Shown piece after piece: positions 29,034 to 46,181 of a stretch of DNA of 64,000 bases. The position numbers and the translations under genes were made by a program. The stretch is from Thermofilum sp. (lineage in GTDB: Archaea; Thermoproteota; Thermoprotei; Thermofilales; Thermofilaceae). The notes under the pieces were generated by a model. That model saw only the letters and a program-made list of their open reading frames with translations. It did no database searches and was not told where the DNA came from. The stretch spans positions 1 to 64,000 of the forward strand of contig JAVYKX010000003.1 of NCBI GenBank assembly GCA_038741495.1, written 5' to 3'. Position 1 is the first letter of the stretch. Each line of letters starts with the position of its first letter.

Positions 29034-29777
29034 CTACAGGTACTTCACAGCGTCGAAGTACTTTTCCATGTAGCGCCGGTTTGTTTCGTCACCCCCAGGT
29101 ACGTTAGAGCTCATCCAGACTTCCGGCTTCACCCCCCTGCTGAGAAGTATCTCGGCTGCTCTGGCAACCAGCGCTTGCAGGATAAACGCGTTGACGATCG
29201 TGGAGACGGGAGCTATCTTCTGCTCCAGCCCCTCGAGCTTCAAGACTGCATCACCAGCCGGAACCTTGTTATCTATGACGACGTCCGCCAGCTCGTAGAG
29301 CCGCTTCCCGAGCGGGTTAGCCGGCGGGACGCTGCGGCTATACTCCACCGACGTGACCGCGATAACTTTCATCCCCCTTTCTCTCGCTTCCTTAGCCATC
29401 TCCACAGGGACCGCGTTTTTCCCCGAGTTCGACACCACGATCAGAGCCGAGTTCGGGTAGATCCTTAGGGAGTCCAGCAGGACTTTCGCGTAGCCTGGCG
29501 TCCTCTCGAGAAGCGTGCTCTTGACTGCTCCGTTCATCCCGGAGACGCTGAGGTCGAGTATCGGGTAGACGCGGACAAGCCCCCCAGCCCGGTAGAACAT
29601 CTCCATCGCCATCGTCATCGAGTGCCCTGTCCCGAAAACGTAGACGAAGCCGCCTTTCGCGAGGCACTCCGCTACGACCTCTGCAGCTTTCTCAATGTTC
29701 TTCTCCTCTGTGAAAGTTACTCGCTCAAGAAGCCTAGCCACCTCTATGTAGAACCGGCCGATAGCATTATCCTTCAT
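29034..29777 (-). CDS. SIS-domain protein (UPF0309 type), copy 1
   Basis: A 247-residue phosphosugar-binding protein. [38 protein letters not shown] and the C-terminal [18 protein letters not shown] are hallmarks of the UPF0309 family often found in bacterial PTS and amino-sugar operons. The function is not established; an isomerase, deaminase or etherase on a sugar phosphate is likely. It is divergent from HPr. A paralogue at 43608-44360 is clearly alike along its whole length. Confidence 0.82.
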
Positions 29778-29899: not shown

Positions 29900-30172
29900 G
29901 TGAAGTCTCTTCGACTAAAGGTTGCTAACCGCAGCGGCCTTCACGCGAGGCCTGCAGCGATGTTCGTCCAGACGGCGAGGAAGTTTTCCTCAAAGATCCT
30001 CGTGAAGAAAGGCGGGAAAGCCGCCGACTCGAAGAACATTCTCCAGGTTCTCTCTCTAGGGGTGGACATGGGTGACGAGATAGAGCTCGTCGTTGAGGGG
30101 TCTGACGAGGACCAGGCGCTCGAAGAGCTGAGAAAGCTTATCGAGGAGGTTCTCCCAAGCGTCGACAAGTAG
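29900..30172 (+). CDS. ptsH: PTS phosphocarrier HPr
   Basis: A 90-residue HPr. The phosphorylated histidine is His15 in RSGLHARPAAMF. The segment after it, DSKNILQVLSLGVDMGDE, matches the region around regulatory Ser46 of Gram-positive HPr, but that position is Asn46 here, so HPr-kinase control is unlikely. It passes phosphate from enzyme I to the IIA proteins. It is convergent with enzyme I with no bases between the stops. GTG start. Confidence 0.93.
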   Translation: MKSLRLKVANRSGLHARPAAMFVQTARKFSSKILVKKGGKAADSKNILQVLSLGVDMGDEIELVVEGSDEDQALEELRKLIEEVLPSVDK

Positions 30173-31894
30173 CTATTCGAGAACTCTCGCGCCAACGCTC
30201 TCCAGGTACTTTCTGCTCCACGCTCTCACTTCACTTGAGGTAGCTGCGCGCTCCACAAGTTCTCGAACCTGCTCTGAGACTTCCGACATCTTTACGCGCC
30301 TGATAACGTACTTCACTCTGCCGACGAACGCTGGAGCAACGCTGAGCACTTCAACCCCCAAGCCTAGAAGTACAGGCACAGCTAAACCCCTGCTAGCCAT
30401 TTCTCCGCAAACCTCCACCTCCGCTTTACCCTTCACCCGCTCCGCCGCGTAGCGGATGAGGCGGAGGACCGCGGGGTTCATCTCGTCGTAGATACTGCTG
30501 ACTCGAGGGTTCCCCCTATCCGCCGCCAGAACGTACTGGGTCAAATCGTTGGTTCCGAAGCTGATGAAGCTCAGCCCCCCCTTCTCGACGATCTCCCTCG
30601 CCAGCAGAGCCGCAGAGGGGACCTCAACCATCACGCCGAGCTTCGGGAGCCTGTAGGCTGCTCCAAGGCTCTCCAGGCTCTCAGCCTCCTCGGCCACCGC
30701 GCTGGTGAGCTCCTCCACCTCCTCTACGGAAGTAATCATCGGAAACATCAAGCGAATGTCGCCGTGCACTGCCGCGCGCAGCACAGCGCGGATCAGCGGC
30801 TTCAGGAGCCTATCGCGGTGCGCGAGCAGGAGCCTAGCCCCGCGGACGCCGAGCTGAGGGTTAGGCTCGCCCGGAAGCTCGAGGAACCTAACCGGCTTAT
30901 CACCCCCGATGTCCGGTGCTCTGACTGTGAGCGGCCCCCCACCTAGGAGCTCGAGGCCGCGCCGGAATAGCTCGTAGAGCTCGTCCTCGCTGGGCGCTTC
31001 CAGCTTAGCCATGTACGCGAACTCGACTCTAAAGAGGCCTACGCCGCCACAGCCGTACGAAGCTGCAGCGCGCAGGTCTTCCACGCTTCCAGCGTTGCAC
31101 GCAACCCAGACTCTCACGCCGTCCGCGGTGACCGGCTCGAGTAGAGCTTCAGCCGAGTATGCTTTCGCGAGCTCGCGCAGCTCGGCAGCTACCGCCTCGT
31201 AGCGGCTCTTCTCCTCTAGCGGCGGCTCCACGATAAGGTACCCGTTGACCGCGTCCAGTACAGCATCGGCACCGTCTTTGAGGAGCGCGGGATCTACGCT
31301 GCTCGCGATCACGTAGGGTACTCCGCGGAGCCTGGCTAGGATCGAGACGTGCGACGTAGGCCCCCCTGACCGCGTGACTAGCCCGGCGATACCTGCTTCG
31401 CTCGCTTCAAGGAACTCGATAGGGTCCATCTCCTCGGCCACCAGTACGCGCCCGCGGAAGCTTAGCTGAATTGTAGAGCAGCCGCTCAGCACAGCGACGA
31501 GCCTGCGTGCGAGGTCCCTCAAGTCCTGCGCTCTGAGCGCGAAGAGCTCGCCCCCGCTGGCGAGGAGAGAGGAGTACTTTTCGTAAACCTGCTTTACTGC
31601 CCACTCCGCGCAGGTGAGCTCGGAGCGAACCTTCTCCTGAGCCTCCTGGACGAGCGAGTCTAGCATCAGGATCTGGGCTTCAACTATCTCTCGCTCTTCT
31701 CTCGGAAGCATCGAGGAGATCTCCTCCAGCTTTCTCCTGAGCTGAGAGCCAGCTTCAGACAGGCGGAGAACCTCCTGCTCAGCATCCTCTACGCTCCGCC
31801 TCTCCACGGCTTCTAAAGCGCTTTCCCGCCTAAGCACCAGCAGAGGGCCTGACGCGACACCCGGCGAGACCACTACGCCTTTGAATTTCAGCAT
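30173..31894 (-). CDS. ptsI: PTS enzyme I (PEP-protein phosphotransferase)
   Basis: 573 residues from ATG 31894 (TTG 31900 adds two). Domain order is standard: HPr-binding helical domain, the swivelling phosphohistidine domain with RSGGPTSHVSILAR (His182), and the PEP-binding TIM barrel with VCGEMASRG carrying the catalytic cysteine near the C-terminus. It autophosphorylates from PEP and phosphorylates HPr. It is divergent from nagA across a 115-bp region with an 18-bp palindrome, which suggests joint control of PTS energy supply and N-acetylglucosamine breakdown. Phosphoenolpyruvate synthase shares the C-terminal domains, but the N-terminal layout and the HPr gene next door favour enzyme I. 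Confidence 0.92.
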   Translation of the reverse strand: MLKFKGVVVSPGVASGPLLVLRRESALEAVERRSVEDAEQEVLRLSEAGSQLRRKLEEISSMLPREEREIVEAQILMLDSLVQEAQEKVRSELTCAEWAVKQVYEKYSSLLASGGELFALRAQDLRDLARRLVAVLSGCSTIQLSFRGRVLVAEEMDPIEFLEASEAGIAGLVTRSGGPTSHVSILARLRGVPYVIASSVDPALLKDGADAVLDAVNGYLIVEPPLEEKSRYEAVAAELRELAKAYSAEALLEPVTADGVRVWVACNAGSVEDLRAAASYGCGGVGLFRVEFAYMAKLEAPSEDELYELFRRGLELLGGGPLTVRAPDIGGDKPVRFLELPGEPNPQLGVRGARLLLAHRDRLLKPLIRAVLRAAVHGDIRLMFPMITSVEEVEELTSAVAEEAESLESLGAAYRLPKLGVMVEVPSAALLAREIVEKGGLSFISFGTNDLTQYVLAADRGNPRVSSIYDEMNPAVLRLIRYAAERVKGKAEVEVCGEMASRGLAVPVLLGLGVEVLSVAPAFVGRVKYVIRRVKMSEVSEQVRELVERAATSSEVRAWSRKYLESVGARVLE

Positions 31895-31939
31895 GGGCAA
31901 GTGCCCCCAAGGGCTTAGCGCGCGCCGAATATCACTTTT

Positions 31940-31957: not shown

Positions 31958-32009
31958 ATGCGAAACCGATATCTCGAGCTTAGCAGAGGTAAGGACTGGG
32001 TGACCAGCT

Positions 32010-33167
32010 ATTAGAGTAGTCTACAGAAACTGCAGGCTGCTGACACCCGCCGAGGACCTTGGGGTCAGGGACATCGCGGTCGAGAACGGCCTCGTGGTGG
32101 CCGTCGGGAAAGGTCTCCGCGGAGATAAGGTTGTGGACTGCGAGGGCTTAACCGCTTCGCCGGGCTTCATCGACACGCACATCCACGGCTACAAGGGAGT
32201 GGACTTCACCGAGGCGGACGCTGACGGTATCCTTAGAGTCGCCGGCGAGCTGGTGAAGCACGGTGTGACTTCCTTCCTGGCTTCCACGGTCGCCGCCCCC
32301 CGGGAAGCTCTCCTGCGAGCTTGCTCAGCCGTCAAGGAGGCTGCTTCTCGCTGGAGGCCGGAGCTGGGCGCGAGAATCCTCGGGATCCACCTAGAGGGGC
32401 CTTTCCTCAACCCTAAGTGGAGGGGGGCGATGAACGAGGCCTTCTTCCGGAAGCCTTCTCTCGAGGAGCTCAGCGAGTACGTTAGAGCGTCGGGCGGGCT
32501 GGTCCGCCAGGTGACAGTCGCGCCCGAGCTCGAGGGAGCGCTCGACTTCATCAGGGAGGTTGCAGGCTGGGGTATCGCGGTGAGCCTCGGGCACAGCGAT
32601 GCAACTTACGAGCAGGCAGTGGCAGCCGTGGAGGCTGGAGCCAGGAAGGCGAACCACATCTTTAATGGGATGCGGGGCTTCCACCACCGGGAGCCCGGTC
32701 TGGCCTTCGCCCTGCTGGAGAGGCCGGAGGTGTTTGTCGAGGCGATAGTGGATTTCGTGCACTTGCACCCGGCCACCGTGAGGCTAGTTGTCGACCGTGC
32801 CGGTTCAGGAAGAGTAGTGCTCGTGACCGATGCCGTGCAGGCTGCGGGGCTCCCGGACGGCGAGTACACGCTGGGAGGGCTCAGGATCGTCGTTAAAGGA
32901 GGTGTGTCGAAGCTTGCCGATAGGGACACTATCGCTGGGAGCACTCTGACGATGGACACAGCAGTGCGTAACTTGGTTAAGCTCGGGTACGGCTTGAGGG
33001 ATGTGCTGACCATGGCTAGTCTAACGCCCGCTAGGAGCGTGCTAGCGGTCGGGAGGGACAGGGTCGGCGCTCTCGAGCCCGGCTTCAGAGCGGATTTCGT
33101 GCTTCTCGACGAGGAGCTGAGAGTCGAAAAAACTATCGTGAACGGCGAGGTTGTGTACGGAGCGTAG
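32010..33167 (+). CDS. nagA: N-acetylglucosamine-6-phosphate deacetylase, apparent ATT start
   Basis: 385 residues if translation starts at ATT 32010. Metal and active-site segments: DTHIHGYKG (His57, His59), GIHLEGPFLNP, SLGHSDATYEQ, KANHIFNGMRGFHHREPG and VTDAVQAAG (catalytic Asp). It removes acetate from GlcNAc-6-phosphate (or GalNAc-6-phosphate). The first standard codon (GTG 32094) would remove 28 residues, including the small beta-domain strands RVVYRNCRLLTPAEDLGVRD. GGTGA (31999-32003) sits six bases before ATT 32010, the normal spacing here. It is directly followed by the GlmS-like gene. Confidence 0.85.
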   Translation: MRVVYRNCRLLTPAEDLGVRDIAVENGLVVAVGKGLRGDKVVDCEGLTASPGFIDTHIHGYKGVDFTEADADGILRVAGELVKHGVTSFLASTVAAPREALLRACSAVKEAASRWRPELGARILGIHLEGPFLNPKWRGAMNEAFFRKPSLEELSEYVRASGGLVRQVTVAPELEGALDFIREVAGWGIAVSLGHSDATYEQAVAAVEAGARKANHIFNGMRGFHHREPGLAFALLERPEVFVEAIVDFVHLHPATVRLVVDRAGSGRVVLVTDAVQAAGLPDGEYTLGGLRIVVKGGVSKLADRDTIAGSTLTMDTAVRNLVKLGYGLRDVLTMASLTPARSVLAVGRDRVGALEPGFRADFVLLDEELRVEKTIVNGEVVYGA

Positions 33168-33176
33168 GTGAGCCCG

Positions 33177-35006
33177 GTGGGCGGGATATTCGCGGCGGTT
33201 TCGAGAACTGGAGGCAACGCGTTCCCCCCCGTTATCCGCGGCCTCGCGAGGCTGAGGCACCGAGGCTACGACAGCGCGGGTTTCGCCGCGCTCAGAGGCG
33301 GCTTCCTCGAAGTGTACAAGGATGTGGGAAGCCTCGAAGAAGTTGCGGAGAAGTTCAACCTGGAGTCTATCACGAGCCCTGTAGTGCTCGGCCACACCAG
33401 GTACGCTACTCACGGCAGACCCACCAGGGAGAATGCGCACCCGCACCTGGACTGCAGGTCCTCGGTAGCGGTGGTCGGCGACGGCTCGATCGGGGGCTAC
33501 GAGAAGCTGAAGGACAGCCTGCTCATGAGGGGGCACAGGCTAGTTTCCCGCTGCGACTTCGAGCTGCCTGCTCACCTGCTGGAGGAGGAGCTCGAGAAAG
33601 GGGTCGCTGCCGCCGAAGCGCTATCTCGAGTGGCGGAGCAGCTTGAGGGGTTCTACGCGGTAGCAGCTCTCTTCAGGGACGAGGGTTGCATTGCAGCTAC
33701 GAGCACGCACACGCCTCTCTACCTGGGCTTGTCGCGAGACTACTACCTGCTATCCTCTACGGAGGCTGCCCTGCTAGATCTCGCAGAGGAGGTAGTTGAG
33801 GTTCTTCCAGGAGAGGTTGTGAGAGTAGCGGCTGAAGGCTTCTCCATCTACACCCGCCAGCGCAGCCCAGTGAACAGGGAGGCGAGAACCCTCTCGGTCG
33901 ACCCGAGGCTCGCGGATAGGGAGGGGTTCCCGCACCACATGCTGCGAGAGATATACGAGGTGCCCTACGCGCTTCTCAGGACCCTTTACACCATCCAGGC
34001 GAAGTACCTCCAGCTGTCCTCTCGCCTCATCACGGGTGCAGATAGGATCTACATTATCGCGAACGGGACCAGCCTCCACGCGGGGCTCGTTGCGGGCTAC
34101 TACCTCTCCGAGCTCGCAGGCATAAGCCCTGTAGTAGTCAGCGCAGCCGAGTTCCCGCTCTACTACGTCGAGAACGTGGGCCCAGGTAGCCTCGTGATCG
34201 CGATATCCCAGTCTGGGGAGACGGGCGACGTGCTCAGCTCACTTTACGAGGCGAAGCTACGGGGAGCTACCATCCTCGGAGTAACGAACTACGTTGGTTC
34301 GAGGCTAGCCCGCCTCTCCAACGTTTACCTGCCTATAGGCGCGGGCCCCGAAATCGCGGTGCCAGCGACGAAAACTTTCACCTCCACGCTCCTCCTCCTC
34401 TACCTATCCTCCCTGCAGGCTGGCAGAGACTTGGGTAAAGTTTCCCAGGACGAGCACTCCCGGGCTGTAGCGGCAGTGAAAACCCTCGCGCAGAGTCTTG
34501 CGGCGGGGCTCCCCCAGCTCGACCGCCAGGCGACGCGGGCGGCTGCCCAGGTGGCGGCTTGCAGAGGCGGGTATGTGGTTTCGCGAGGAATCACCTACCC
34601 GCTCGCCCTTGAAGGAGCTCTAAAGCTCAAGGAGGCGGCGTACTTCCACGCTGAAGGGGTTGAGGCGGGCGAGTTCAAGCACGGCCCCTTCGTACTCGTC
34701 GAGAAAGGTTTCTTCGCTGGCTTCATCGTCCCCGTGGAGAAAGTAGCCGCCGAGGCAACCTACCCGCTCATCACCGCAGCAGCAGAGTCAGGAGCCACAG
34801 TGGTCACAGCAGGCTTTGAGGGAGACGAGAAGCTCGCCGAAGCAGGTGAAGCGGGCGCGGCAGTGCTCACCACGGTGAGGACCGAGCGGCACCTTGCACC
34901 GATCTCGCTCGCAGTCCCCCTGCAGCTCTTCGCGTACAGGCTCGGAGAAAAGCTGGGAAGACCCATCGACGCGCCAAGGTACTTGACGAAAGCGGTACTG
35001 AGGTGA
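33177..35006 (+). CDS. GlmS-like aminosugar isomerase/deaminase with inactive glutaminase domain
   Basis: About 609 residues with the full GlmS layout: N-terminal glutaminase domain (RHRGYDSAGFAA, HTRYATHGRPTRENAHPH) and two SIS domains (ANGTSLHAG, SQSGETGDVLSS, AGEFKHGP, C-terminal PRYLTKAV). GTG 33177, five bases after GGTGA, gives M-G-G-I-F-A, so the catalytic Cys1 is Gly. The oxyanion HNG is GDG (101-103). The glutaminase is thus probably dead, while the isomerase-site Glu and Lys remain. GlmS-type SIS proteins lacking the glutaminase (archaeal GlmD) act as glucosamine-6-phosphate deaminases, so a catabolic role after NagA is likely; ammonia-dependent synthesis is the alternative. GTG 33168 adds three residues and still no Cys. 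Confidence 0.85.
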   Translation: MGGIFAAVSRTGGNAFPPVIRGLARLRHRGYDSAGFAALRGGFLEVYKDVGSLEEVAEKFNLESITSPVVLGHTRYATHGRPTRENAHPHLDCRSSVAVVGDGSIGGYEKLKDSLLMRGHRLVSRCDFELPAHLLEEELEKGVAAAEALSRVAEQLEGFYAVAALFRDEGCIAATSTHTPLYLGLSRDYYLLSSTEAALLDLAEEVVEVLPGEVVRVAAEGFSIYTRQRSPVNREARTLSVDPRLADREGFPHHMLREIYEVPYALLRTLYTIQAKYLQLSSRLITGADRIYIIANGTSLHAGLVAGYYLSELAGISPVVVSAAEFPLYYVENVGPGSLVIAISQSGETGDVLSSLYEAKLRGATILGVTNYVGSRLARLSNVYLPIGAGPEIAVPATKTFTSTLLLLYLSSLQAGRDLGKVSQDEHSRAVAAVKTLAQSLAAGLPQLDRQATRAAAQVAACRGGYVVSRGITYPLALEGALKLKEAAYFHAEGVEAGEFKHGPFVLVEKGFFAGFIVPVEKVAAEATYPLITAAAESGATVVTAGFEGDEKLAEAGEAGAAVLTTVRTERHLAPISLAVPLQLFAYRLGEKLGRPIDAPRYLTKAVLR

Positions 35007-35038: not shown

Positions 35039-36028
35039 CTAAGCCTGCCCAGCTACCTGAAGCTCTTCAACCTGCCTAGTTATCTTTTCAATCACACTTC
35101 TCTGGAGGTGGTACATCTCGGCGAATATGGCAGCTGGGCCACGCATCGGCGCGTAGCCAGTCAGCGGATCTATTAGCTGAGCATTGGAAAGATCCCGTAA
35201 ATTCTCCAGAAAGCTTTCCTTAACTATCCTAGAGGAGAAGACGCTTCCCACGCCCCCGATAATCATTCTCCTCTCCCGCTGCCCTATTTTCCTGTGCACA
35301 GCCTTAGCCATGAGCGCAAGCTCTCGTCCTCCCTCTTCAAGAATCGTGCGGGCTACAGGATCTCCTTGTTCAGCAGCTTCGCTGACAAGCTTCGCTATTT
35401 TCCCCAGCTCTCCCACATCTCGGGCAGCTATCGCGTATATCGCGTCAATAAGCAGGCGCGGCTCTTCTACACTGAAAAACCTGAGCACTTTCTCAGCTAT
35501 GAGGGTGCGCTCTCCCCTCCCGTCTAGAGATTTGTAGCAGACGCTTAAAGCTCGCATAGCAATCCAGACTGAGCTACCTTCATCTCCCCCGAACCAGCCC
35601 CACCCTCCTGCTCTTGCCTCCTCTCCTGTAGAGTTCCTGCCAAAAGCTATCGAGCCTGTTCCCGCGATCACAGCTATTCCAGGATCCCCCAGCGTGACAG
35701 CGTAATAGGCAGTAACGAAGTCGGGAACGAGCACTAAGCGGCTCCTGAAAAGCCTATCCTCTCTAAGCCTTCGGGCGAAGTACTCCTTATCTCTCTCAGT
35801 ATCGAGGTCGGGTAAGCCGAGGATGGCCCCCTCAAGGTCTTCTAGGCTAATACGGCTATTTCTCACAGCTCGCTGTAGTGAGGCGACAAGGTTCTCGTAA
35901 GCTTTCTCAAACCCTACTGTCGACCACCCCGTCGAACCACCGACGTGGTATCCGTGAATGTTCCCCTGCTCGTCCACAACCACACTCAGAGTCTTGGTTT
36001 TACCCCCTTCAACTAACAGCACGTACAC
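35039..36028 (-). CDS. N-acetylglucosamine kinase-like (BadF/BadG family)
   Basis: A 329-residue sugar kinase of the ASKHA fold. The N-terminal phosphate-1 motif (LLVEGGKTKT) and the second nucleotide loop (VIAGTGSIAFGRN), plus GGWGWFGGDEGSS, match the eukaryote-like N-acetylglucosamine kinase branch of BadF/BadG ATPases. It would phosphorylate GlcNAc or a related amino sugar that enters unphosphorylated, for example by the ABC importer next door. It is convergent with the GlmS-like gene and divergent from the ABC ATPase; GTG start. Confidence 0.78.
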   Translation of the reverse strand: MYVLLVEGGKTKTLSVVVDEQGNIHGYHVGGSTGWSTVGFEKAYENLVASLQRAVRNSRISLEDLEGAILGLPDLDTERDKEYFARRLREDRLFRSRLVLVPDFVTAYYAVTLGDPGIAVIAGTGSIAFGRNSTGEEARAGGWGWFGGDEGSSVWIAMRALSVCYKSLDGRGERTLIAEKVLRFFSVEEPRLLIDAIYAIAARDVGELGKIAKLVSEAAEQGDPVARTILEEGGRELALMAKAVHRKIGQRERRMIIGGVGSVFSSRIVKESFLENLRDLSNAQLIDPLTGYAPMRGPAAIFAEMYHLQRSVIEKITRQVEELQVAGQA

Positions 36029-41261: not shown

Positions 41262-42443
41262 ATGATGAGCTTCGCCATTACTAGAGATCCTGTGCTTAGC
41301 ACTTCTCACTCGGGTGAGGTAGCCGAGAAGCGACCATGCCTCCTGGGGGTTTCACCTATATCTGTATATGTAGTCCACGCTGCTCTGAGGGCGGCAAAGG
41401 ATAATAGCGCTCCCATCCTTTTTGTTGCTTCCCTGAATCAGGTCGATGTAGACGGCGGGTACACGGGCTGGACACCCGAATTATTTGTGAGCTACGTTTC
41501 TGAGGAGGCAGATAAGCTGGGTTTTCAAAAGGAGTGCGGCGTGGTTTTCGAGCTTGATCATGGTGGTCCTTGGCTGAAGGATGAGCATATTGTGAAGAAC
41601 TACTCCTATATGGAAGCAGTAGATAGCTTTCTGAAATCATTAGAGGCTTTTATTCGTTCAGGCTTTACTCTCGTGCACATCGATGCAACGCTTGATCTCG
41701 AGAGACCTGGTGGTGTAGCTGAGCTGAGCACTGCAGCGGTGCGAACTGCTGAACTTATAGCTTACTCAGAGGAAATTGCTAGGGAGTGCGATGCTAAGCT
41801 AAGCTACGAGATAGGGAGTGATCGATGGGGGTACAAGTCGCCAGAGCAGCTTAGCGATTTCATTACTCGCGTATTTCTTGAATTGAAGAAAAGGGGTCTC
41901 AACCCAGGGAAGGTTGTTTTCGGAGTAGCCGATGTTGGGACGAAGGTCGAGCCCGGGAATAGGGTTGATCCATTTGTTGTAAAGGCTTTCTCGGAGGTTG
42001 TGCAGAGCCACGGTCTTCGTTTAAAAATTCACTCGGGTGATTTTCTCGAAAACCCTGAAGTGCTACCGCAGACTTCTGCGGGAGGTGTGAACATAGGCCC
42101 TATGTTTGCTCACACAATGTATTCTACAGTTAAGGAGGTGCTGCAGCGTCACCACGATGCAGTGGCTGCTGAGAGGCTGCTAAGGGAGCTTAACACTCTT
42201 ATAGTTTCTGGAGATAAGTTAAAGAAGTATACAGCTGGAGAGGCTGAGGAGTATAAGCTTGGCATCGCCTCAAGGTATATCTGGTCTACAAGGAATGCTG
42301 AGACTCTTCTAAGTAGAGTATCTGATGAAACCGGAGTCGATGTGAGAAAACTTATCGTCGATAGGATATACGGGGAAATCTCTTCATATATTCAGAAGCT
42401 GGGTTTGCAGGGTCTGTTGACGCATATGGTAAATTTGAAGTGA
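41262..42443 (+). CDS. tagatose-1,6-bisphosphate aldolase non-catalytic subunit family (GatZ/KbaZ/AgaZ-like)
   Basis: 393 residues. The TIM-barrel core has the GatZ/KbaZ signatures: FVASLNQVDVDGGYTGWTP, the ELDHGGPWL strand, LVHIDATLDL and SYEIGSDR. In bacteria this subunit supports KbaY/GatY aldolase in galactitol and N-acetylgalactosamine catabolism, and some homologues may act alone. No class II aldolase partner is in the window. With the neighbouring AgaS-like SIS protein it suggests a galactosamine or tagatose-phosphate route (inference). Confidence 0.82.
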   Translation: MMSFAITRDPVLSTSHSGEVAEKRPCLLGVSPISVYVVHAALRAAKDNSAPILFVASLNQVDVDGGYTGWTPELFVSYVSEEADKLGFQKECGVVFELDHGGPWLKDEHIVKNYSYMEAVDSFLKSLEAFIRSGFTLVHIDATLDLERPGGVAELSTAAVRTAELIAYSEEIARECDAKLSYEIGSDRWGYKSPEQLSDFITRVFLELKKRGLNPGKVVFGVADVGTKVEPGNRVDPFVVKAFSEVVQSHGLRLKIHSGDFLENPEVLPQTSAGGVNIGPMFAHTMYSTVKEVLQRHHDAVAAERLLRELNTLIVSGDKLKKYTAGEAEEYKLGIASRYIWSTRNAETLLSRVSDETGVDVRKLIVDRIYGEISSYIQKLGLQGLLTHMVNLK

Positions 42444-42510: not shown

Positions 42511-43584
42511 TTAAACAGTTTTCACGACTCTATCTATATGGCGAGGCTCGTCGGGGTTATAACCCAAGAGGAGCGCCCTTTCCACAGCGAAGTAGTACAT
42601 CGCAATGGCATGCAGAAGGTATGCGAACTGGGAGTTCATCCATAGGGGTATCTCCAGGTCTGAGCCTTTTTCATCGGAGATGTAAAGAACATCAAAGCCG
42701 CGGTGACGTAGTTCGTCGACTAGCCTATGCAGGTAATCGACAGAAGGTGAGCTGGAAGCCGAAAGTACCACTAGCTGTAGGTCCTCGGCGTGCTCCCGCA
42801 ATGCTAAGGGTCCGTGCCTGAACTCTAAGGCGTGGAGCGCTGTGGAGAAAGTGTAGGATACTTCGACCAGCTTAAGGCTTGCTTCAAGAGCTACAGCGTA
42901 GAGGCTCTCCGGAGCGAGAACCACGAAGTTTCTCTTACTGAGAGAGGTTTTAACTAGCTCTTGAATGTTCTCACGCTTGCTGGAGATCCTCTCAACCCCT
43001 TCTGAGAGCTTCATCAGCTCAGCTTTAACGTCCACAACGTGCGCTTTCTTCTCAGCGAGAAGAAGCGAGAAAATCAACCCTAGCAGCGAAAGCCCAATGA
43101 ACGACTTTGTCATATAATGGCTTTTCTCAGCACAGACACTGAGCGCAACTGAGGCATCAGATTCTCTGTGTAGAGTGCTCCCCTCGGAGCACGTCAGCCC
43201 AATTGTGCTTAACCCCAAGCTGCGTGCCTGCCGCAGCGCTAGAACTACTTCTCTTGTCTCACCAGAGCGCGAGTAGAAAACTGCCGCTGGTGCTTGACCT
43301 AAGTCTTCACGAGTAGCTCTCGAGAGCAGGTAGATGAGCTCAGAGGCAGGTAGAGAGTAGCCTGAAACTCTGCTGAAGTGAAGAGGGTAGGCACCGAAGG
43401 ATGCTGCGTAGTAGCTGCTCCCGCACCCTGTGTGCACTACTTTAGCTGGCTTAACGCTGTTTAGCGTACTCTGAAGTACTGCACTGATATCGCTGTACTT
43501 TTCCGCAAGAGTTCTAGCAACTAGGGCAGATTCCTGTATTTCAGCTAAGATTAGGAGCTTTTCCGGAGATTTACCTTTAAACAT
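42511..43584 (-). CDS. SIS-domain aminosugar-6-phosphate deaminase/isomerase (AgaS/GlmD-like)
   Basis: 357 residues, two SIS domains without a glutaminase domain: HTGCGSSYYAASFG, YSRSGETREVVLAL, HALEFRHGPLAL with the catalytic-type Glu, and the C-terminal NPDEPRHIDRVVKTV. Homologues are AgaS (galactosamine-6-phosphate deaminase/isomerase) and archaeal GlmD (glucosamine-6-phosphate deaminase). It would produce a ketohexose 6-phosphate and ammonia. With KbaZ on one side and PTS genes on the other, galactosamine-6-phosphate is the better guess. Confidence 0.82.
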   Translation of the reverse strand: MFKGKSPEKLLILAEIQESALVARTLAEKYSDISAVLQSTLNSVKPAKVVHTGCGSSYYAASFGAYPLHFSRVSGYSLPASELIYLLSRATREDLGQAPAAVFYSRSGETREVVLALRQARSLGLSTIGLTCSEGSTLHRESDASVALSVCAEKSHYMTKSFIGLSLLGLIFSLLLAEKKAHVVDVKAELMKLSEGVERISSKRENIQELVKTSLSKRNFVVLAPESLYAVALEASLKLVEVSYTFSTALHALEFRHGPLALREHAEDLQLVVLSASSSPSVDYLHRLVDELRHRGFDVLYISDEKGSDLEIPLWMNSQFAYLLHAIAMYYFAVERALLLGYNPDEPRHIDRVVKTV

Positions 43585-43607: not shown

Positions 43608-44360
43608 CTAGAGAGGTTTAATTATGTTTAAGTATTTCTCTACATGCTTTCTGTTTTTCTCGATACCTCCTGGAACATTTGCACTTATCCATATCTCCGG
43701 AGTCACTCCTCTATCGATGAGCTTCTCAATTGTTCTAATGTTAAGAAGCTGCAGGATGAACGAGTTAACGATTGTTGAAACCGGTGCAACCTTAATGTTG
43801 AGAGCGCTAACCTCGTAGATAGCATCACCCTCAGGAACCTTGTTATCAATGACCACGTCCGCTATCTCGTAGAGCTTCTTTCCGAGGGGGTTCTCGGGGG
43901 GTACTCGCCTCGAAAATTCGAGAGATGTGATCCCGATAACGTTTAAGCCTCTTTTCTTAGCACCTGCTGCCATCTCAACGGGCACTGCGTTCTTACCGGA
44001 GTTCGAGACTATAATTAGAGTGGAACCCGGCTTGGGAGCTACCGAGTTTAAGATCGTTTCAGCGTACCCAGAAACTCTCTCCAAAAACGTGCTTTTTATC
44101 GCTCCGTTAAGCGCCGATATGGAAATATCTAGGAGAGGATACACCCTGACTAATCCTCCTGCTCTGTAGAACATCTCTACAGCCATCATCATCGAGTGGC
44201 CTGTCCCAAAAATGTGGATAAAACAGTCTTTAGCAATACTATCAGCCATTAACTCTGCAGCTCTCTCGATATTTTCCTTTTCTTCAGCTGTAATCTTTTT
44301 AATAATTGTAATTACACTGTTTGCGTATCGCTCGTAGGCAGGTGGTAACGCTTCCATCAC
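43608..44360 (-). CDS. SIS-domain protein (UPF0309 type), copy 2
   Basis: 250 residues, paralogous to 29034-29777: [38 protein letters not shown] and [18 protein letters not shown]. The DNA is markedly more AT-rich than the first copy, so the two diverged or were acquired separately. It stands between an AgaS-like gene and a PTS IIB gene, supporting a role in PTS sugar phosphate metabolism. Confidence 0.82.
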
Positions 44361-44864: not shown

Positions 44865-46181
44865 ATGATAGAAGCTTTAGCTAAAGCGTTACTGGATATT
44901 CTATCAACGCCCGCATTCACAATATCCCTTGTTGCACTAGTAGGTTTAATCGCCCTTCGAAAGAAGGCCTACGAAGTTATTACAGGCTTCCTTAGAACCT
45001 TCATTGCTTTGTTGATTGTAGTTGCCGGCGCGATTACGATTGTAAACGCTCTCTCCCCTCTCAACGGCCTCTTTGTAAGAGCTTTCGGCTTTCGAGGAGT
45101 TTACACTCTAGAGGAGGTAACCACAGCCTCCGCTATGGCTGCTGGCCTAGGCTTTGAGATCGGAGCGATTTTCGGCTTAGGCTTTATCCTGCACTTAATT
45201 CTGGTTCGCTTGCTAGCAGCCAGAACTCCCTTCAAGCACATCTACCTCACGGGGCACGTGATGTGGACCATGGCAGGTGCTATAGCGCTCGTTCTCTTCA
45301 ACTACGGGTTAAGGGGGATGAGCGCGGCCACTCTCGGTGCAGTTCTCCTCGCAATATACCTGACCGTGGCACCAGCAATGGTTTGGCCCTTCGTCAGGAA
45401 GATTACTGACGGGCAGTGGAACATAGGTCACACCCAGGACTTCGGCCTTATGGTATTCGGCGGCTTGATCCCGCGCTTAATTAACAAGGTTACAGGAGGG
45501 AAGGCGGCGAAGATGGAGGCTGAAGGACTGAAGTTCCCCGAGGAGCTTGCCTTCCTGAAGCAGCCAGGCATAATTTCAGGCCTGATAATGCTATTCGTAT
45601 TCCTTATTCCTACTCTCTACCTGGGTCCCGGAGTTATCGAGAAGGAGTTCAGCGGCGGTACAAACTACATTGTCTGGGCTATAATTCAGGCTTTAACCTT
45701 TGCCGCAGGTATCGAGGTGCTGCTCTTCGGTGTAAGGACGTTCCTGGGCGAGATAATCCCCGCATTCAAGGGAATAAGCGAGAGAGTGATTCCCGGAGCT
45801 ATACCTGCGCTCGACGTGCCGACGGTGTACCCGCTCAGACCCATTGCGTTGATGCTAGGTGTAATTGTGCACGTAATTGTCGTGCCTTTCAGCACGATCC
45901 TACAGGCAGGCATGGGGCTGCCCATGGTGATTTTACCTAACGCGATCTACATGTTCTTCGTGGGAGCAACAACAGGAATTCTCGCTGACAAGGAAGGAGG
46001 AATTCCAGGAGTTATCGTAGGCAGTATCCTCTCCGCATTCTGGTATATGTTCCTTCCAATCTGGGCATACCCGTTCCTAGGTCTCGAGAAACTCGGCCTC
46101 ACAGGCCTTAGCATGAGCGCGGACTGCGGAATCTGGGCTATAATCTACGGGCTAATACTCCGACCATTCTTCGGCAGGTAA
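44865..46181 (+). CDS. PTS IIC, ascorbate family (UlaA/SgaT-like)
   Basis: A 438-residue membrane protein with about 11 helices. ASAMAAGLGFEIGAIFGLGF, GHTQDFGLMVFGGLIPR and the C-terminal GLTGLSMSADCGIWAIIYG match UlaA-type transporters. In bacteria UlaA imports L-ascorbate; homologues handle other sugars or sugar acids, so the substrate is open. It works with the IIB across the divergent promoter and with a IIA encoded elsewhere. Confidence 0.88.
   Translation: MIEALAKALLDILSTPAFTISLVALVGLIALRKKAYEVITGFLRTFIALLIVVAGAITIVNALSPLNGLFVRAFGFRGVYTLEEVTTASAMAAGLGFEIGAIFGLGFILHLILVRLLAARTPFKHIYLTGHVMWTMAGAIALVLFNYGLRGMSAATLGAVLLAIYLTVAPAMVWPFVRKITDGQWNIGHTQDFGLMVFGGLIPRLINKVTGGKAAKMEAEGLKFPEELAFLKQPGIISGLIMLFVFLIPTLYLGPGVIEKEFSGGTNYIVWAIIQALTFAAGIEVLLFGVRTFLGEIIPAFKGISERVIPGAIPALDVPTVYPLRPIALMLGVIVHVIVVPFSTILQAGMGLPMVILPNAIYMFFVGATTGILADKEGGIPGVIVGSILSAFWYMFLPIWAYPFLGLEKLGLTGLSMSADCGIWAIIYGLILRPFFGR

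Follow-up and report, generated by a model that had tools for sequence, protein, structure and literature searches.

A full-length homologue of the glutamine-dependent GlcN-6-P synthase GlmS, encoded in a 64,000-nucleotide stretch of Thermofilum sp. DNA (the window), has lost its glutaminase active site and is probably a catabolic hexosamine-6-phosphate deaminase derived from a duplicated biosynthetic GlmS. Its reaction would most likely be the conversion of GlcN-6-P to Fru-6-P and ammonia. An initial annotation of the window had proposed this origin and function for the protein, here called pseudo-GlmS (GGIF family), and the proposal receives strong comparative support from the conserved lesion, the single clade, the link to NagA, the mutual exclusion with classical NagB and the presence of an intact GlmS.

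The pseudo-GlmS gene and its residues

The reading frame starts with GTG at 33177, directly downstream of a Shine-Dalgarno-like GGTGA motif, ends with TGA and encodes 609 amino acids (Table 1). Pfam recognizes a GATase_6/7 domain followed by two SIS stretches. Alignment to E. coli GlmS, which supplies the numbering, bears out the early reading that Gly replaces Cys1 and that G-D-G replaces H-N-G, and it places a Tyr at the position of Trp74. The isomerase residues Lys485, Glu488, His504 and Lys603 are all present, the retained Lys having been recognized from the start. The catalytic Glu had been assigned to the motif A-G-E-F-K-H-G-P, but it lies in A-L-K-L-K-E (residue 486 of the window protein); A-G-E-F-K-H-G-P holds the His504 equivalent (residue 502). 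An alternative in-frame GTG at 33168 merely prepends M-S-P-V to G-G-I-F, so that no choice of start supplies a Cys.

Table 1. Coordinates of pseudo-GlmS, its key sites and neighbouring genes in the window
Feature	Position	Strand	Remarks
Pseudo-GlmS (GGIF family), full-length GlmS homologue	33177..35006	+	Putative hexosamine-6-phosphate deaminase; N-terminal glutaminase inactivated, SIS isomerase domain intact
Codon GGC (Gly) at the catalytic Cys1 position of the glutaminase	33180..33182	+	48/48 homologues have Gly; 32/32 true GlmS have Cys
G-D-G where H-N-G is expected (H97, oxyanion-hole N98, G99)	33477..33485	+	Alignment to E. coli GlmS
Isomerase active-site stretch A-L-K-L-K-E...A-G-E-F-K-H-G-P	34617..34688	+	Lys485, Glu488 and His504 equivalents
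NagA, N-acetylglucosamine-6-phosphate deacetylase	32010..33167	+	TIGR00221, 293 bits (cut-off 226); adjacency conserved
BadF/NagK-type kinase, candidate GlcNAc kinase	35039..36028	-	PF01869; NagK_SO3507, 103 bits (below cut-off 370)
PTS Enzyme I	30173..31900	-	TIGR01417, above cut-off
HPr	29900..30172	+	TIGR01003, above cut-off
Single-SIS AgaS/GlmD-like protein, rival deaminase candidate	42511..43584	-	Separate lineage in tree
GatZ/KbaZ-like tagatose-bisphosphate aldolase subunit homologue	41262..42443	+	PF08013

Conservation of the lesion

Among 398 sampled Thermoproteota genomes, about 50 carry the pseudo-GlmS gene, and they are spread over 11 family-level groups; 46 holders were checked by residue and two (G310, G362) were assigned by score, while the gene is truncated at a contig edge in G094 and its frame is broken in G370. 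Throughout the 48 distinct pseudo-GlmS sequences, Gly stands at position 1, Asp or Glu at 98 and Tyr, Phe or Ser at 74, where the 32 true GlmS have Cys, Asn and Trp without exception. His97 is lost in all 48 as well, and positions 1, 74, 97 and 98 are the only glutaminase columns that are fixed in GlmS yet lost in pseudo-GlmS. The C-terminal residues beyond Lys603 are altered in every one of the 48 sequences. Each of the four isomerase residues is retained in 48/48, as are the phosphate-binding Ser/Gln/Ser residues in the family. Five other Thermofilum genomes, among them that of Thermofilum sp. NZ13, have orthologues with the same lesion (63-65% identity), and so do more distantly related Thermoproteota. 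Beyond the Thermoproteota, the distribution was probed by a scan of near relatives, whose matches were four loci in Thermoproteota and a single remote one in a bacterium. The glutaminase site was destroyed in a common ancestor of the pseudo-GlmS proteins.

A sequencing error or a wrong start is ruled out, since both starts lead to Gly-Gly-Ile-Phe and all 48 homologues carry Gly; the hidden Cys codon that had been named as a possible refutation is thereby excluded. A decaying pseudogene is likewise ruled out by open frames in about 50 genomes and by dN/dS values well below 1 in both domains. The broken frame in G370 (L132:2956-4772) is accompanied by a fragmentary second NagA-like gene nearby, and this locus looks as if it had undergone pathway decay or contains contig errors.

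Ancestry and the intact GlmS copy

A tree was built on the isomerase domain alone, with the lesion columns excluded and with 41 non-redundant pseudo-GlmS rows. All 41 form one clade (SH-aLRT 99), which is sister to true GlmS (support 99 for the pair). Single-domain GlmD-like proteins constitute a separate group (support 97), and AgaS-like proteins also stand apart from pseudo-GlmS and GlmS. Descent of pseudo-GlmS from GlmD is ruled out by this topology; the archaeal GlmD invoked in the initial annotation holds as a functional analogue, but not as a parent. Some groupings cross class boundaries, with f50, a family of another class, placed with Thermofilum, and f7 with f31. They suggest lateral transfer, which would not be surprising for a catabolic gene.

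The second, intact glmS that had been proposed as a check was found in the genome of the window (G000:C1:302161-303912). It encodes 604 amino acids with the motifs MCGIVG and VVHNG and adjoins a GlmU-like gene (TIGR03992, 178 bits, below the cut-off of 292). Intact and pseudo copies were both recovered from 21 genomes. The two families differ in their neighbours: a GlmU-like gene is present at 20 of 34 intact GlmS loci and NagA at none (two of the 34 loci are counted twice, as L002/L110 and L023/L114), whereas NagA is present at 12 of 29 pseudo-GlmS loci and GlmU at none.

Association with NagA and alternative deaminases

NagA was detected above the TIGR00221 cut-off in 61 of the 398 genomes. 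It is present in 38 of the 50 pseudo-GlmS genomes versus 23 of the 348 others (Fisher p about 1e-26, a value that ignores relatedness). By score, seven families (f1, f2, f7, f8, f15, f24 and f31) include genomes with both genes and genomes with neither; in f58 the contrast runs the opposite way, so that seven families agree and one disagrees. In 16 of the 38 genomes, from five families, NagA and pseudo-GlmS are direct neighbours, in codirectional, divergent or convergent arrangement. A subset of pseudo-GlmS proteins may use another substrate or pathway, since 12 of the 50 holders have no NagA above the cut-off.

Classical NagB (PF01182) exceeds the cut-off in 19 genomes, 11 of them with NagA, and co-occurs with pseudo-GlmS in none of the 398 genomes sampled. 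No PF01182 Glucosamine_iso match was obtained in the genome of the window or its family. A single-domain GlmD-like protein is present in five of the 61 NagA-positive genomes, none of which carries pseudo-GlmS. Twelve NagA-positive genomes have neither pseudo-GlmS nor NagB; they comprise the five with a GlmD-like protein (REFLHGP motif), two with another single-SIS protein and five with no visible candidate. In G103 (L130:3660-5722), a single-domain GlmD-like gene overlaps NagA in the slot held elsewhere by pseudo-GlmS, and G394, of the same genus, carries pseudo-GlmS. Four Thermofilum genomes (G011, G012, G014 and G016) have no NagB, and their only matches to SIS profiles are the intact GlmS and pseudo-GlmS.

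Gene neighbourhood

In the window, NagA lies immediately upstream of pseudo-GlmS, as described initially, with its stop 9 nucleotides from the pseudo-GlmS start. The region encoding its homologous N-terminus (32004-32100) contains no ATG, GTG or TTG, and GGTGA precedes an ATT at 32010; this ATT is the probable start, the ORF finder having begun at GTG 32094. The BadF/NagK-type kinase gene is convergent with pseudo-GlmS. Further Thermofilum, as well as L084 and L089, also have Enzyme I beside pseudo-GlmS. In Thermofilum, NagA and pseudo-GlmS occur with Enzyme I, HPr and a complete mannose/sorbose-family PTS (EIIA, EIIB and EIIC-EIID), and the substrate would therefore arrive already 6-phosphorylated. 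The initial annotation considered the nearby glutamine synthetase able to recycle the released ammonia, an idea that finds no support here, its gene lying near pseudo-GlmS in only two of 23 loci compared.

The AgaS/GlmD-like gene, missing from most other Thermofilum, lies beside the GatZ/KbaZ-like gene and a SIS_2 gene, and its product could also deaminate an amino sugar phosphate. The GatZ/KbaZ-like neighbour suggests a galactosamine branch. A PTS permease of the EIIC-GAT (ascorbate/galactitol) type is encoded at 44865-46181 of this archaeal genome, with Enzyme I and HPr in the same window. Two paralogous SIS_2 proteins of 250 amino acids (29034-29777 and 43608-44360) are each encoded near PTS genes, and their homologues adjoin NagA in G366 (L133) and G378 (L146); they may represent a further sugar-phosphate isomerase acting in this pathway. 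A DUF7916 (PF25509) protein is encoded within a PTS cluster of the mannose family that adjoins NagA and pseudo-GlmS (L082:13657-14682), and homologues occur in L080, L081 and L083, making four Thermofilum genomes in all.

Proposed reaction and rival explanations

In GlmS, Cys1 frees ammonia from glutamine, and the ammonia reaches the isomerase site through a channel that Trp74 and the C-terminal tail make up (PMC7948480). This supply appears to be gone in pseudo-GlmS because the nucleophile, the oxyanion hole and the gate are lost. The remaining isomerase site could in principle turn GlcN-6-P into Fru-6-P and ammonia or the reverse; related sites act as deaminases in the archaeal GlcN-6-P deaminase and in AgaS (PMC3668189). 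Deprived of an ammonia source and channel, the isomerase site of pseudo-GlmS would run in reverse. The enzyme would open the ring of GlcN-6-P and isomerize it to the imine of Fru-6-P, which water would hydrolyse with release of ammonia to the solvent. The pathway would lead from a PTS or kinase to GlcNAc-6-P, through NagA to GlcN-6-P and through pseudo-GlmS to Fru-6-P. Beside NagA, deamination would be the useful direction, and both direction and substrate are read from this context. The catalytic residues do not discriminate deamination from ammonia-dependent synthesis, as the reaction is reversible, and we know of no signature residue specific to deaminases.

Synthesis of GlcN-6-P from free ammonia instead of glutamine would be compatible with the intact isomerase residues, and one holder, G336 (97% complete), yielded no intact GlmS in the search. 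Such a role is nevertheless improbable given that a glutamine-dependent GlmS is also present in the 21 genomes compared, that pseudo-GlmS is linked to NagA and the PTS and never to GlmU, that its patchy distribution follows a catabolic gene, and that the Trp74 gate and the residues beyond Lys603 are altered in 48/48 sequences. Action on another amino sugar phosphate, converting GalN-6-P to Tag-6-P or serving as a sugar-6-P deglycase, is brought into consideration by the AgaS-like SIS protein, the GatZ-like protein and the GAT-family EIIC of the window, by an EIID-AGA type PTS in other Thermofilum, and by the interchangeability of E. coli NagA and AgaA (PMC3668189). We regard it as unlikely: the AgaS-like protein of the window belongs to a separate lineage and is missing from G011, G012, G014 and G016, four genomes with both NagA and pseudo-GlmS, and the isomerase site descends from GlmS, an enzyme of the gluco/fructo series.

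Pseudo-GlmS might also be a regulatory or mixed-oligomer partner of the intact GlmS that occurs in the same genomes, or an enzyme resembling phosphoglucose isomerase, an activity that human GFAT2 is reported to retain and that had earlier been reported for E. coli GlmS (PMC7948480). Both are very improbable, as a pure regulator would not need isomerase catalytic residues that are all invariant, and pseudo-GlmS is linked to NagA and not to glmS.

The retained glutaminase domain

In the same 21 genomes, the SIS domains of the two families are equally conserved (mean identities of 53.6 and 52.5%), which places the isomerase half under normal constraint. The glutaminase domain has a mean identity of 39.7% in pseudo-GlmS versus 54.0% in GlmS. 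Its dN/dS in pseudo-GlmS is roughly 0.06-0.2 for usable pairs; the domain is relaxed but still under purifying selection. Arg73, Gly99 and Asp123, which hold the glutamine backbone in GlmS structures, are among its near-invariant residues. The dead glutaminase domain described initially is not simply vestigial, as it is under purifying selection and these three positions are kept. An AF2 model of pseudo-GlmS finds its best structural match in the C1A mutant of E. coli GlmS with glutamate (3ooj), and ligand binding without hydrolysis would be possible.

The inactive domain could be kept for folding, oligomerization or ligand sensing. A structural or sensing role may exist, because purifying selection keeps the amino-acid-binding residues. 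As a more specific and still speculative idea, the domain might be an amino-acid sensor that binds glutamine or glutamate unhydrolysed and tunes the putative catabolic deaminase to nitrogen status, since Arg73, Gly99 and Asp123 are kept while catalysis is abolished.

Relation to known enzymes and annotation

Pseudo-GlmS shares with GlmS (E. coli, 2j6h, 3ooj) the two-domain architecture of about 610 amino acids and the isomerase and phosphate-binding Ser/Gln/Ser residues. It differs in lacking Cys1, Trp74, His97 and Asn98 in 48/48 sequences, in the altered segment after Lys603, in adjoining NagA instead of GlmU and in being a second copy beside an intact GlmS. GlmD (NF041128) is a single-domain GlcN-6-P deaminase of Thermococcales. 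It has in common with pseudo-GlmS a GlmS-type isomerase domain, the proposed deaminating direction and, in G103, the slot beside NagA, but it has no glutaminase domain, and pseudo-GlmS scores 54 bits against its model, below the cut-off of 580. NagB-II of Shewanella (NF046059; PDB 8eol) is also a SIS-fold GlcN-6-P deaminase but has a single domain; the two-domain pseudo-GlmS scores 112 bits with its model, short of the cut-off of 430. In E. coli AgaS, a GalN-6-P deaminase/isomerase, a homologue of the C-terminal domain of GlmS likewise works as a catabolic deaminase (PMC3668189); unlike pseudo-GlmS, it has no glutaminase domain, and it belongs to a separate lineage, represented in the window by the AgaS/GlmD-like protein. 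No description of a pseudo-GlmS paralogue was found in the open literature, most subscription papers lying outside the search.

Should the deaminase assignment hold, a two-domain amidotransferase would have become a catabolic enzyme through the loss of a few glutaminase residues with the whole domain kept. With pseudo-GlmS, archaea would then have a third kind of SIS-based deaminase for amino sugars, beside GlmD/NagB-II and AgaS. It would supply the missing step of GlcNAc breakdown in Thermofilum, and probably also in those other Thermoproteota where NagA occurs with no recognized deaminase. The constrained pseudo-domain would offer a clean natural test of the role of an amidotransferase domain once it can no longer make ammonia.

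Against the TIGR01135 glmS equivalog model, the pseudo-GlmS of the window scores 485 bits, above the cut-off of 418, and ten of ten further pseudo-GlmS also pass (422-494 bits). Automatic annotation probably misnames these proteins as glutamine-dependent GlmS, since all 11 tested pass this model. Genomes with two 'glmS' genes are probably misread as having doubled biosynthesis and missing catabolism. Among the NCBIfam models used here, those for NagB-II and NagK bear the numbers of successive Shewanella loci, SO3506 and SO3507.
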